Made by a program: the position numbers and the translations under genes. Below are positions 21,823 to 35,147 of a stretch of 64,000 bases of DNA, in pieces. The first letter of the stretch is position 1, and every line of letters starts with the position of its first letter. Origin of the DNA: Halosimplex rubrum (GTDB lineage: Archaea > Halobacteriota > Halobacteria > Halobacteriales > Haloarculaceae); assembly GCF_013415885.1 (NCBI RefSeq), contig NZ_CP058910.1:3534001-3598000 (forward strand), written 5' to 3'. The notes beneath the pieces are model-generated. The model was given only the letters and a program-made list of their open reading frames with translations, did not search any database and had not been told where the DNA came from.

Positions 21823-21907
<85 letters not shown>

Positions 21908-22268: not shown

Positions 22269-23747
22269 TCAGTAACTCGCGTCCTCGACGACGTTGAGAT
22301 CGAAACTCTCGTCGGCGGGCTCGTCGTCGGGCGTGAGGTAGCCCTGGGCGAAGGCGGTGTAGACGGTCCCGCCGTCGAGGGACACGTCGTAGTCGGCGAC
22401 GACGTCGCCGTCGTTGCTCTCGGTGTCGCCGCGGATCTGGACGGTGTAGTCGTTGGCCTCGACGGCGGTGTAGCCGGACTCGCCGAAGGCGACGCCGTCG
22501 AACAGCACCGCGTCGCCGCCGGCGGCCGTCACGTCGACCGCGGGCGCGTCGGGCGACCCGTGGACGACGCGCAGTCGCGCCGTGTTCCCGCCGGGGTCGC
22601 TGTTGTCGTCTTCGAGGACGAGCGGCTGGAACTCGGTGTCTTCGCCCGTCAGTTCACCGGCGGCGACGATGGTGTAGTCGCCCGTACCGACCGTGACGGG
22701 GCCTTCGAAGGCCACCGTGTCCGCGTCGCCCGCGGCGGTGATGGTGACAGTCCGCTCACCCGTGGGTACCGAGAGATAATCGCTGACGGCGCCGAAGGGC
22801 ACGTCCGAGAGGGTCTCGCTGTCGTCGACGTACACGTCGACGTTCGGCGCGTCCGGGGACATGTGGGCGACCCGGACCGAGCCGGTCTCGACCAGGCCAC
22901 CGCCGCCGGCGCCCGAGTCGACGGCGAACGTCAGGTCGAACGGCGCCTCGGCGTCCTCGTCGCCGGGCGTGAGGTAGCCGCCGGCGAAGCCGGTGTAGAC
23001 GGTGCCGCCGGTGAGTTCGACGGTGTACTCCGCGACCACGTCGCCGTCGTTGGAGTCGGTGTCGCCGCGGACCCCGAGCGTGTAGGTCCCGGCGGGCACC
23101 TCGACGTAGCCGGACTCGCCGAAGGGCACGCCGTCGAACAGGACGGTCTCGCCGTCGCCGGCGGTCACGTCGACCGCGGGCGCGTCGGGTGACGCGTGGA
23201 CGAGGCGGACCCGCGCCGTGTCCGAGCCGACCTCGCTGTTGTCGTCTTCGAGGATCAGCGGCCGGAACTCGCTGTCCTCGCTGGACAGCTCGCCGACCGC
23301 GGCGACCGTGTAGTCGGTGTCGGCCGCGACGGTCACCTCGCCCTCGAAGGCGACCGTATCGGCGTCGCCTGCGGCGGTGATCGTGACCGTGTGCGTGCCC
23401 GCTGGCAGTTCCATGTAGTCGCTGATCGCGCAGAACGGCACGTCCGAGAGGGTCTCGCTGTCGTTCACGTACACGTCGACGTTCGGCGCGTCCGGCGAGA
23501 AGTGGGCCACGCGGACGTTCGCGGTGCCTCCCATCCCCGAGTCGGTGGCGGTCTCCGTGTCGGTGTCCATCCCGCCGTCCATCGCGTCCGTCTCGGTGTC
23601 CATCCCGCCGTCCATCGCGTCCGTCTCGTCGGCGCCGTCGTCGGCTTCGGTGTCGGTGGATCCCCCGTCGGAGCCACAGCCTGCGAGACCGACCGCGGCC
23701 GATGCGCCGAGCGCTGCGAGCAGGTCGCGTCGCGTCTTGCGTGTCAT
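22269..23747 (-). CDS. Secreted lipoprotein with four DUF4397 domains
   Basis: The 492-residue protein starts with a Tat signal (RKTRRDLLAALG) and a lipobox LAGC (C24), so it is probably exported folded and lipid-anchored outside the cell. Residues about 28-77 are an Asp/Met/Gly/Thr-rich stalk with an almost exact tandem repeat (TDAMDGGMDTE). Four beta-rich DUF4397 domains follow, starting near residue 78. Domains 1 and 3 open with SPDAPNVDVYV and domains 2 and 4 with SPDAPAVDVTA, so a two-domain unit was duplicated. The function of DUF4397 is not established. The start at 23747 gives the signal peptide directly. Confidence 0.9.
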   Translation of the reverse strand: MTRKTRRDLLAALGASAAVGLAGCGSDGGSTDTEADDGADETDAMDGGMDTETDAMDGGMDTDTETATDSGMGGTANVRVAHFSPDAPNVDVYVNDSETLSDVPFCAISDYMELPAGTHTVTITAAGDADTVAFEGEVTVAADTDYTVAAVGELSSEDSEFRPLILEDDNSEVGSDTARVRLVHASPDAPAVDVTAGDGETVLFDGVPFGESGYVEVPAGTYTLGVRGDTDSNDGDVVAEYTVELTGGTVYTGFAGGYLTPGDEDAEAPFDLTFAVDSGAGGGGLVETGSVRVAHMSPDAPNVDVYVDDSETLSDVPFGAVSDYLSVPTGERTVTITAAGDADTVAFEGPVTVGTGDYTIVAAGELTGEDTEFQPLVLEDDNSDPGGNTARLRVVHGSPDAPAVDVTAAGGDAVLFDGVAFGESGYTAVEANDYTVQIRGDTESNDGDVVADYDVSLDGGTVYTAFAQGYLTPDDEPADESFDLNVVEDASY

Positions 23748-28956: not shown

Positions 28957-29157
28957 ATGAGCAGAACGTCGATCCCCGTCGATTCCGAGACGAAGGAACG
29001 GCTGGACGGGCTGAAGCGGGACGACGAGACCTGGGACGAGTTCCTCACGCGAGTCACGAGCGACGAGGAACCGATGACACCGGGAGTGTGGACGGACGAG
29101 CAGGCCGACGAGGCGATGGAGCGCCTCCGAGACGGACGGGACCGGACGGCCGAATGA
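28957..29157 (+). CDS. VapB-like antitoxin, ribbon-helix-helix type
   Basis: The 66-residue acidic protein starts MSRTSIPVDSETKERLDGLK, with a short strand followed by two helices as in ribbon-helix-helix DNA-binding antitoxins. The C-terminal half (GVWTDEQADEAMERLRDG) would wrap the toxin. Its stop overlaps the toxin start codon (ATGA). The paired PIN toxin and the operator-like repeats upstream support the assignment. Confidence 0.82.
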   Translation: MSRTSIPVDSETKERLDGLKRDDETWDEFLTRVTSDEEPMTPGVWTDEQADEAMERLRDGRDRTAE

Positions 29158-29543
29158 CGTTTCTCGACACCTCGGCGATCATCCAGTATCTGCGCGGCGA
29201 CACGGCGGTTCGCGAGCACATCGAGGGGCGTGAACCGTGGCTCACCTCGACGATCTGTGTCTTCGAAGTCATCGACGGGCGCCTCGGGAGCGGATCCAGC
29301 GACATCGTCGACATCCGTCAGGACTTCGCGGGCGTTCAGGCGCTCGATCTGAACGAATCGATCGCGATCGAAGCGGCGCGACTGCAGGACGAACTGCTGA
29401 ACGACGGCGACCGGCTCGCGACGGCCGACCTGTTGATCGCAGCGACAGCTCGTTCGACCGGTGACGAACTGGTGGTTGCCGACGGCGACTTCGAAACCGA
29501 CGCCCTCGAAGACGTGATGCAGGTGACCAATCTGCGCCGCTGA
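29154..29543 (+). CDS. VapC-like toxin, PIN-domain ribonuclease
   Basis: The 129-residue protein starts MTFLDTSAIIQYLRGD, with D5 as the first metal-binding acid of the PIN domain. CVFEVIDGRL provides the conserved Glu. The LATADLLIAATARSTGDELV segment holds the later Asp, and VVADGDFE the last acids. VapC toxins cleave tRNA or rRNA. All active-site acids seem present, so it is probably functional. Confidence 0.9.
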   Translation: MTFLDTSAIIQYLRGDTAVREHIEGREPWLTSTICVFEVIDGRLGSGSSDIVDIRQDFAGVQALDLNESIAIEAARLQDELLNDGDRLATADLLIAATARSTGDELVVADGDFETDALEDVMQVTNLRR

Positions 29544-32607: not shown

Positions 32608-32720
32608 AGCACCCGTTCAGGACGACGGCGGCTTAGTGGCTTCGACGGGAGCGCCGCGGGCGGGATCGGTCGAGTCCCGAGCGGGCAAAGCATTTGTCCG
32701 GTCGACGGAACGATCGGGGT

Positions 32721-33224
32721 GTGATCCGCGCGCTCGGGAGACGCGGTGCGCTCGCGGTGGCGCTCGTGGTCGTTGCGTCCGTCCTGCTCGGGTTCTGGCC
32801 GACGACCGTCCAGCCGGTCGACGACACCCTGAAGATCGACCACGCGCCCGACGACTTCGGCCCCGCCCACTACTACCCCGAGAACGACAGCGTCAGCTTC
32901 TGGACGAGCGCGAGCGGGAGCGAGCGCGCAGTCGAGCCGTTCGAAGAGTACGCCTGCCGGTACGGCGAGGACGCGGCGCTGGACCGACTGCGGGACCTCC
33001 TCGACAGCCGCTTCCGGACGGGCGACAGCGGCGTCCGGTGGGACACCTGGTCCGACCGGGTCGTCGTCCGCGACGCCCCGCTCCAGGGACCGACCCGGCG
33101 GGCGCTCCGACACAGCCTGCCCGGGCGTGTGAACGTCTCGGTCGAGATGTTCGACCGGACGGCTCACTGTTCGTTCCCCGTCGAGATCAGACGGCCGACG
33201 GGCGATCAACCACAGCCGGGCTAG
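32721..33224 (+). CDS. Secreted or membrane-anchored protein, unknown
   Basis: The 167-residue protein starts at a GTG (32721). Residues about 4-24 (ALGRRGALAVALVVVASVLLG) form one hydrophobic helix, a signal anchor. The rest (VDDTLKIDHAPDDFGPAHYY onward) would lie outside the cell. It has two Cys (YACRYG and AHCSF) that could form a disulfide. A TTG at 32694 could add nine residues. I do not recognise the family. Confidence 0.7.
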   Translation: MIRALGRRGALAVALVVVASVLLGFWPTTVQPVDDTLKIDHAPDDFGPAHYYPENDSVSFWTSASGSERAVEPFEEYACRYGEDAALDRLRDLLDSRFRTGDSGVRWDTWSDRVVVRDAPLQGPTRRALRHSLPGRVNVSVEMFDRTAHCSFPVEIRRPTGDQPQPG

Positions 33225-33236
33225 CGACCTGCCGGA

Positions 33237-33280
33237 CTACTCGTAGACGTGGACGCTCCCGGTCGCGTTGGCCTCGATGT
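33237..33280. repeat. 44-bp direct repeat, left copy (fragment of the dehydratase 3' end)
   Basis: These 44 bases are identical to 33972-34015, the last codons and stop of the enolase-superfamily gene. Similarity fades just after, with scattered matches to about 33308. The copy starts exactly at the stop codon. With the right copy it brackets the toxin-antitoxin pair at 33365-33927. Confidence 0.9.
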
Positions 33281-33364
33281 CGTCCCGGTCGTCGATACCG
33301 GGAGCGGGGTCGCGAACTGTTCGGTGGAGTAACTGTTTTGTCCCTGTGTCGAACACTCTAAGAC

Positions 33365-33532
33365 ATGGGTAGCTCTATCAATTCGTCCTCTCCGTCTGGT
33401 CCTGCTGAGGAGGGGACATCGGATGAATCAGACGGGGAGGGATCGGAACTCGGTGATCTGCTGGCGGGGCGTCTGTCGGATATCGACGTCGACTCGGTCG
33501 CAGCGGTCCGCGATGAACGAGAGCGGCGATGA
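33365..33532 (+). CDS. Putative antitoxin of a PIN-domain pair (55 aa)
   Basis: The 55-residue acidic protein is Ser/Gly/Glu-rich in its first half and ends DVDSVAAVRDERERR. Its stop overlaps the start of the PIN toxin (ATGA). The family is not recognised; position, size and overlap identify it as the antitoxin. A weak TATA-like AACTGTTTTG lies about 30 bases upstream. Confidence 0.7.
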   Translation: MGSSINSSSPSGPAEEGTSDESDGEGSELGDLLAGRLSDIDVDSVAAVRDERERR

Positions 33533-33927
33533 AGGTGTTCGTCGACTCGAACGTCTTCGTCGCCAGTGTAACGGACGAACCGCCTCGTGGCGATGTCGCG
33601 ACAGCGCTGCTCAATCGTGACTTCGAGTTCTGTACGTCGATTCTGAACCTGATGGAGATCAGGTCGGTACTGACGAAGAAGAAACGAACGGAGCAGTCGG
33701 AAGTCGAAGACGTGCTGGAGGACATTTACGGAACGATAGACATCTACGCACCCGAGATCAGCGACCAGATCAGCGCGTACAGTATCCAGCGCGACTCGCT
33801 TCTCTATACGATGGACTGTGTATTACTCGCACTCGCCGACGATATCGAGGCGACGCTCGTCACGTTCGACGGCGAACTACTCGACAACGGCGCGGTCAGT
33901 CCTGACGAGTTACTCGAACAGGCCTGA
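33529..33927 (+). CDS. PIN-domain toxin (VapC-like)
   Basis: The 132-residue protein begins MKVFVDSNVFVASVTDEPPR with D6 as first metal ligand. LNLMEIRSVL supplies the conserved Glu and MDCVLLALADD the next Asp; LVTFDGELL provides the last. It is AT-richer than its neighbours, and codon use (for example CGT, TCT, ATT) differs from the GC-rich genes around, suggesting transfer. It sits between two copies of a 44-bp repeat. Confidence 0.87.
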   Translation: MKVFVDSNVFVASVTDEPPRGDVATALLNRDFEFCTSILNLMEIRSVLTKKKRTEQSEVEDVLEDIYGTIDIYAPEISDQISAYSIQRDSLLYTMDCVLLALADDIEATLVTFDGELLDNGAVSPDELLEQA

Positions 33928-33971
33928 TTCGCGGTATAGACATCCGGAAGCCCTGAAAACTACTGTCTCTG

Positions 33972-34015
33972 CTACTCGTAGACGTGGACGCTCCCGGTCG
34001 CGTTGGCCTCGATGT
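33972..34015. repeat. 44-bp direct repeat, right copy
   Basis: This is the 3' end of the enolase-superfamily gene, from the stop codon inward (about 14 codons). It is identical to 33237-33280. Confidence 0.9.
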
Positions 34016-35147
34016 AGTCCCAGTCGTAGTCGACGCCGAGACCGGGGCCGTCGGGGACGGGGACGGTCCCCTCGTCGTCGACGGTGTCGAGCTGGTCCTC
34101 GTAGTCGCCGGTGTACACCGGCGGGGTGGTGTTGGGCGCGTCGGGGTGGACCAGCGCCATCTCGTAGTAGTTGCTGTTGCGGACGGCGGCCATGCAGTGT
34201 CGCTGGGCGGGCCCGGGCGCGTGGAACTCCACGTCGAGGCCGTGGCCCTCTGCGACGCGGGCGCGTTTGATGGCGCCGGTGATCCCGCCGTCGTACTCGG
34301 GGTCTGCGCGGACGAAGTCGGTCGATTCGGCGTCGATGAAGTCCGTGAACGGCTCCAGCCCGCGGACGTGTTCGGTCTGGAGGATCGGCGTGTCGAGCTG
34401 CTGGCGGAGCTTGCGGTGGGCGTGCTGGGAGACGCCCCCGTCGCGGTAGGGGTCCTCGTACCAGAAGAACTCCTGCTCGTCGAGGGCGCGGCCGAGCTTC
34501 AGCGCGTCGGCCAGCGTCTCCAGTTCGCAAGCGGGGTCGTGCATCAGGTCCATCTCGTCGCCGACGCGGTCGCCGACGGCATGGACGGCGTCGAGTTCCC
34601 GCTCCAGGTCCCGCGAGCCGTCGCTGCCGCCCCAGCCGTGGATCTTGAAGCCGGGGTAGCCCAGGTCGAGACAGTGCTCGGCGAAGTCGGCGAAGTCCTC
34701 GGGGGTTTCGAGGCCGCCGTTCTCGTCACCGTGGTACGTCGAGGCGTATGCGGGGAGCCGCTCGCGGTAGGTCCCGAGCAGTTCGTGGATCGGCGCGTCG
34801 TGGTACTTGCCGGCGAAGTCCCACAGCGCGATGTCGACGGGGCCGATGCCCATGCGGTCGTACTTGCGCAGGGCGCGTTTGATCTCCGACCAGTGTTTCT
34901 CCCGTTCCAGGGGGTTCTTGCCGACGAGGTAGTCGGCGAAGGTGTTGATCTGGGCGGCGCCCGGGGAGTTGCCGCCGACGTACTCGCCGGTGATCCCCTC
35001 GTCGGTGTGGACGGTGACGGCGAACAGCTTGCGCTCGACGCTCTCGCCGGGCTCGTAGACGAGGTTGAACCCGTGCTGGTCGGTCCCCATCTCGGGGATC
35101 TCGTAGGCGAACTCGACGCTCTCTATCTTCGTGATCTCCGGGGCCAT
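33972..35147 (-). CDS. Enolase-superfamily sugar-acid dehydratase or racemase (mandelate racemase type)
   Basis: The 391-residue protein has an N-terminal capping domain (to about 125, with ITGEYVGGNSPG) and a TIM barrel. Barrel motifs are YPGFKIHGWGG with a Lys-x-His pattern, LMHDPACELE (first metal Asp), WYEDPYRDGG (Glu) and FVRADPEYDGGITG. EFHAPGPAQRH near the C-terminus holds a likely catalytic His. In haloarchaea, enzymes of this superfamily serve as xylonate or gluconate dehydratases; the exact substrate here is unknown. The last codons are duplicated at 33237. Confidence 0.9.
   Translation of the reverse strand: MAPEITKIESVEFAYEIPEMGTDQHGFNLVYEPGESVERKLFAVTVHTDEGITGEYVGGNSPGAAQINTFADYLVGKNPLEREKHWSEIKRALRKYDRMGIGPVDIALWDFAGKYHDAPIHELLGTYRERLPAYASTYHGDENGGLETPEDFADFAEHCLDLGYPGFKIHGWGGSDGSRDLERELDAVHAVGDRVGDEMDLMHDPACELETLADALKLGRALDEQEFFWYEDPYRDGGVSQHAHRKLRQQLDTPILQTEHVRGLEPFTDFIDAESTDFVRADPEYDGGITGAIKRARVAEGHGLDVEFHAPGPAQRHCMAAVRNSNYYEMALVHPDAPNTTPPVYTGDYEDQLDTVDDEGTVPVPDGPGLGVDYDWDYIEANATGSVHVYE

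Follow-up and report, generated by a model that had tools for sequence, protein, structure and literature searches.

We suggest that in the window, i.e., the whole stretch of 64,000 nucleotides analyzed in this work, a short toxin-antitoxin (TA) cassette probably entered the chromosome by recombination where an enolase-type gene has its 3' end, leaving the native gene end behind, and that it was then spread by homologous recombination. The comparison of the window genome (G000, 4.48 Mb) with seven other species of its genus (G001 to G007) demonstrates, at the level of sequence, an insertion, empty sites, a left repeat copy lying in the native position, and the transfer of the pair, together with the 3' part of the gene, into another species. 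The features on which the argument is built are the following:

32694-33224, plus strand: upstream gene (ORF), 176 aa, no family assigned; in empty sites it converges on the enolase-type gene
33237-33292, minus strand: left copy of the repeat (3' end of the enolase-type gene, displaced), which continues the left flank exactly as in the empty sites
33293-33364, plus strand: spacer in which the promoter of the TA pair is presumed to lie; AACTGTTTTGWCCCTG is kept in G003 and G006 (sequence inspection)
33365-33532, plus strand: presumed antitoxin, 55 aa, conserved in relatives
33529-33927, plus strand: PIN-domain toxin, VapC-like, 132 aa (PF01850 match exceeding the gathering score, E 1e-14)
33928-33971, no strand: spacer from the toxin stop to the stop codon of the enolase-type gene, ending in ACTGTCTCTG (inspection only)
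33972-34027, minus strand: right copy of the repeat, serving as the functional 3' end for the enolase-type gene
33972-34465, minus strand: 3' block sharing its history with the TA pair (windowed identity, trees, mosaic test; G006 groups with G000/G003 only here)
33972-35147, minus strand: enolase-superfamily gene, mandelate racemase/galactonate dehydratase-like, 391 aa (PF13378 and PF02746)

The two repeat copies share an exact identity of 44 bases (33237-33280 and 33972-34015, by sequence comparison within the window), as reported in the preliminary description; the repeat can be extended to positions 33292/34027 with 54 out of 56 bases identical (two mismatches), and the homology reaches about 33312/34050 (~76 bases) with one 3-nt gap. 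The right copy starts with the stop codon (CTA on the minus strand) of the ORF 33972-35147, and the sequences lying to the left of the two copies are unrelated to each other; thus, the repeat starts exactly at the stop codon, as had been claimed. The assignment of this ORF to the enolase superfamily, which had also been proposed, is borne out by its match with MR_MLE_C (E 2e-42), while NCBIfam models for sugar-acid dehydratases match below their cut-off only. The repeat score was 50, vs a maximum of 15 over 60 shuffles of the flanks. In 341 background placements over the window and seven 20-kb congeneric stretches, with this insertion in G003 excluded, a bracketing repeat with a score of 18 or more was found in 13 cases, mostly internal protein repeats. 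A chance repeat is ruled out by the shuffled flanks and by the background placements, and a tRNA target was discarded since the only tRNA of the window sits at 21823. The window also harbors, at positions 22278-23516, tandem copies of about 640 bp that are 77% identical.

The G+C content between the copies is 0.57-0.58, vs about 0.70 in the surroundings, and the two ORFs found there overlap through an ATGA, with the start of the PIN gene lying inside the stop codon of the 55-aa ORF. The latter, whose C-terminus (LGDLLxGRLxDxDxDSVxAVRxERER) is kept in relatives, was matched by no Pfam, NCBIfam or PADLOC model, and we presume that it encodes the antitoxin on the basis of its position, its overlap, and its conservation beside the toxin in relatives. 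The toxin scored below the cut-off of TIGR00305, and a PDB sequence search gave no match to it. The G+C content and the PF01850 match are in agreement with the AT-richer antitoxin-PIN toxin pair that had been read between the repeats, the antitoxin being a presumed one that belongs to no matched family. Similarly, ORFs and domain searches revealed no integrase gene between the copies, as had been stated. The sequence ACTGTCTCTG also lies behind the toxin in chorismate-mutase-linked relatives (inspection only). A second VapBC-like pair is located at 28957-29543, 30 nt past the 3' end of a sugar-dehydrogenase-type gene; it occupies the same place in G005 and is absent from the other six congeners compared. 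It was not retained as a second case of insertion, as no displaced end of the neighbor gene was found.

The comparison with congeners supports, on the sequence evidence, the idea that the TA pair was inserted where the enolase-type gene has its 3' end. Indeed, three congeners (G004, G005, and G007) possess one copy of the gene end only, located immediately after the upstream convergent gene, so that the left flank leads directly into it; these are the one-copy empty sites expected from the earlier proposal of an element inserted at a gene 3' end. The left copy of G000 sits exactly at the gene-end position of the empty site, behind the same 12-nt spacer (cgacccgtcgga in G004, cgacctgccgga in G000); therefore, it is the left copy that represents the native gene end, with the TA pair and a complete end lying inside it. 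The same module with the same flank is found in G003, which harbors an orthologous TA pair and both repeat copies. The left copies of G000 and G003 share 52 out of 56 bases and also a 3-nt deletion that is found in no right copy, so that the two insertions trace back to a single event. In G006, the TA pair adjoins the enolase-type gene without a left copy, and the photolyase and the upstream gene are missing, a sugar-dehydrogenase-type gene being found in their stead. This gene (L075) is split into two overlapping frames, because of a frameshift or a sequencing error, beside the transferred TA block. G001 and G002 do not possess the TA pair. Since direct repeats would allow loss by recombination, empty sites may be either ancestral or secondary, and G004 and G007 could have had a filled site and lost the cassette across the repeat.

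The enolase-type gene of G006 is a mosaic. According to the neighboring genes, G006 is an outgroup species; yet about 490 bases of its gene beside the TA pair group with G000/G003, and the rest groups with G005 and G001. The 59 informative sites are divided 26:2 in the part next to the TA pair and 11:20 in the remainder (p = 0.0007 with 20,000 permutations); the breakpoint falls at about base 493 counted from the stop codon, and the synonymous distance between G006 and G000 is 0.25 in the 3' part of the gene and 0.44 in the 5' part. It follows that the gene end was transferred jointly with the TA pair, through homologous recombination inside the gene itself, and the mosaic gene is the trace of such recombination on one side of the cassette. 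As G006 lacks the left copy, homologous recombination accounts there for the gene side only; in G000 and G003, the left border falls within the gene end. The tree places the three enolase-linked toxins in one monophyletic group (support 0.92). The synonymous divergence of the TA pair is 0.82, vs 0.21-0.51 for the neighbors, and this might reflect either a faster change or separate arrivals.

These data are probably explained by a scenario in which the gene beside the incoming cassette retained or acquired an intact 3' end, and the last ~76 bases of the resident gene became the remnant on the far side. The first joining at the enolase-type gene might have occurred via a long target duplication, via homology-facilitated illegitimate recombination, with a homologous join on one side and an illegitimate one on the other, or through a trans-acting recombinase. 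Once joined to the gene end, the cassette would be able to spread without a recombinase of its own because the gene and the remnant would provide homology to the gene of any relative, and it might be lost through recombination between the repeats; the addiction exerted by the TA pair may help to keep it. The definition of the locus as a "minimal integrating island" is only partly retained: the geometry fits, but no integrase was found, and the evidence on movement favors homologous recombination by way of the gene.

The same geometry was also found at other genes. Relatives of the toxin (E<=1e-15) are present in 103 of the 392 genomes of the order, and direct repeats (score 18 or more) bracket the TA pair in about 26 out of 100 toxin-family loci examined, vs the 13 of 341 background placements given above. 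Over half of the bracketed loci involve gene 3' ends, most of them bounded at the stop codon, and the targets include enolase (2), chorismate mutase (8 loci), aminotransferase (G003, G147), glutamate dehydrogenase (G063), and others, with repeats of 22 to 287 bp depending on the target. Some bracketing repeats are not gene ends (L131, for example, spans a gene start), and the pattern, even though strong, is not universal. A further PIN pair of G003 (L067:2624-3619), whose toxin is broken by a stop codon, is bracketed by an aminotransferase gene 3' end; the copy is 142 bp long with two mismatches, both synonymous. The idea of a cassette-end motif common to all targets was abandoned: by inspection, the motif is present at chorismate mutase, but not at the enolase, aminotransferase, and glutamate dehydrogenase borders.

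In many haloarchaea, one to four tandem cassettes lie behind the chorismate mutase gene (C-terminus LNKVEQRESR-stop), and each of them ends in a further copy of the gene end. The carriers include Halorientalis salina, Natrialba chahannaoensis, and Halorubrum species, and congeners with empty sites exist. The displaced-end pattern was found in 86 of the 392 genomes and the reversed control pattern in none. Arrays of up to four cassettes (L258, L262, L269, L266, L261) are closed by copies corresponding to the last 33 bases of the gene, which still code for its C-terminus. The cargo is rich in TA pairs (PIN, PemK, VapB, MntA-HepT) and embeds other genes too; in G146 (L217:2168-3052), the cassette is an MntA-HepT type VII pair. 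The inner border is fixed, with TAC or GAC before CTGAACAAGGT, and a motif of ~24 nt near GAATCCATNATGGATTTCAGCTAC precedes the border in many cassettes with unrelated cargo. The displaced ends continue into native downstream DNA and differ from the host gene at 279 synonymous codons and at 89 other codons; the prevalence of synonymous differences indicates that they were working gene ends until they were displaced. A TA pair of G434 (L226:1900-2700) has a short chorismate mutase end on either side and is separated from the intact gene by about 2 kb containing other genes; it may belong to an array or may have moved as a cassette together with its two ends.

As for the force(s) that might move these cassettes, no integrase was detected in the cargo among the 25 of 52 Pfam families listed, and the PF00589 matches listed, which are the stronger ones, include none in the arrays or within about 15 kb, while tyrosine recombinases are encoded elsewhere in each genome checked. 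No attP-like sequence for the chorismate mutase site was found in viral contigs or phages, and a phage or virus origin of this site was set aside on the same absence of matches; the plasmid matches to the site are chorismate mutase copies or are unannotated. The plasmid chorismate mutase genes that match the cassette site include that of Haloterrigena turkmenica (NC_013747.1) and others, one of them at two places in its record. At the enolase site, the chorismate mutase cassette-end motif is absent and the TA orientation is opposite; therefore, the two sites need not share one enzyme. It is tempting, even though doubtful, to imagine a haloarchaeal cassette system, possibly recombinase-driven, in which TA pairs or other genes enter the 3' ends of housekeeping genes and each incoming cassette carries a substitute gene end that displaces the one before it, with the chorismate mutase arrays recording successive insertions and the window being an instance with a single cassette.

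Different explanations might be proposed for the repeats of the window. If they were attL and attR sites bounding a very small element that depends on an integrase encoded elsewhere in the cell, then the gene 3'-end repeat and the empty site would be the classic geometry, and the fixed inner border and the ~24-nt motif shared by unrelated cargo, as well as the tyrosine recombinases present in each genome checked, would point in the same direction; on the other hand, the lack of integrases, of nearby PF00589 matches, and of attP-like sequences within the scopes given above and the differences between the two sites speak against it, so that we regard site-specific integration as a serious candidate that is nevertheless less probable than the reading proposed here. 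Slightly less credit, as a tentative possibility, is given to a long target duplication, in which the last ~76 bp of the target would have been copied as the cassette entered. It would explain the two near-identical copies of the window vs the single one of the empty site and the repeat length varying across targets, and it has a precedent in another addiction module (PMC3031569). At the enolase-type gene it fits as well as the displacement of a gene end by a donor one does. Indeed, the two copies differ solely in the inner part of the remnant, by non-synonymous changes and the deletion, which fits a true duplication and does not require a diverged donor; a single informative site bears on concerted evolution of the two. 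The chorismate mutase copies, however, differ mostly synonymously, unlike fresh copies, and a repeat starting at the stop codon is far more exact than expected of a random duplication.

Two further explanations appear much weaker. It is improbable that the left copy was retained for a function, such as the 3' UTR or the terminator of the upstream gene: the bases shared by the left copies of G000 and G003 might be read in this sense, but the inner part decays in both and the adjoining 12-nt spacer is about equally conserved. The preliminary description had raised a gene-duplication remnant as an alternative; in the form of a tandem duplication, with a TA pair landed in or beside its debris, this idea is now hardly tenable. 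Some relatives, G002 and G007 among them, do carry paralogues of the enolase-type gene (about 81% identical), but none of the relatives compared has a complete second gene where the left copy lies, which is the finding that had been named beforehand as a refutation of the insertion, and in G004, G005, and G007 this position holds the sole gene end; these empty sites rule the debris out. The recombination of a TA cassette into the gene 3' end is still the reading that we prefer.

The way in which small, recombinase-less TA pairs enter chromosomes is a long-standing question. Culturable haloarchaea offer filled and empty sites, a mosaic gene, and displaced ends together, which makes the rival mechanisms testable, and the chorismate mutase arrays represent an apparently undescribed site of cassette accretion across an archaeal order. 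Among the open-access papers searched, nothing pertinent was found on chorismate mutase as an integration site or on haloarchaeal TA cassettes with direct repeats; given this scope, such an absence is weak evidence of novelty.

Some of these features are shared with known systems. Like VapBC type II TA systems, the pair of the window consists of a small ORF overlapping a PIN-domain toxin gene, although its predicted antitoxin belongs to no described family and its toxin falls below NCBIfam cut-offs. Cis-mobilizable elements (CIMEs) are flanked by attL and attR and do not possess an integrase. They resemble the cassettes in being integrase-less DNA between att-like repeats and in their tandem accretion at one gene, but no full-size parent element was found for the sites analyzed here. 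The likeness to integron cassette arrays concerns the chorismate mutase hot spot only and not the window locus; it includes tandem cassettes, a similar closing sequence, and a TA-rich cargo, whereas no IntI is found, the PF00589 matches listed including none near the arrays, any attC function of the cassette ends would be hypothetical, and the anchor is a housekeeping gene. The archaeal elements moved by tyrosine recombinases (PMC8371274) also restore the gene 3' end, leave a displaced end on the far side, and exhibit repeats of tens of bases; their integrase sites, however, are mostly tRNA genes, while the genes used here are protein-coding ones, and the element of the window spans 0.7 kb and is integrase-free. 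The closest known process is the insertion, with long and variable target duplications, of bacterial restriction-modification genes, as reported for Helicobacter pylori by Nobusato (2000) and Furuta (2010), both cited in PMC3031569. In both cases an addiction module without a recombinase is bordered by long, variable direct repeats, one copy of which is found in the empty site; the window case differs in being archaeal, in embedding a TA pair instead of restriction-modification genes, and in having a repeat that starts at a stop codon, and the chorismate mutase copies differ in that their changes are mostly synonymous.
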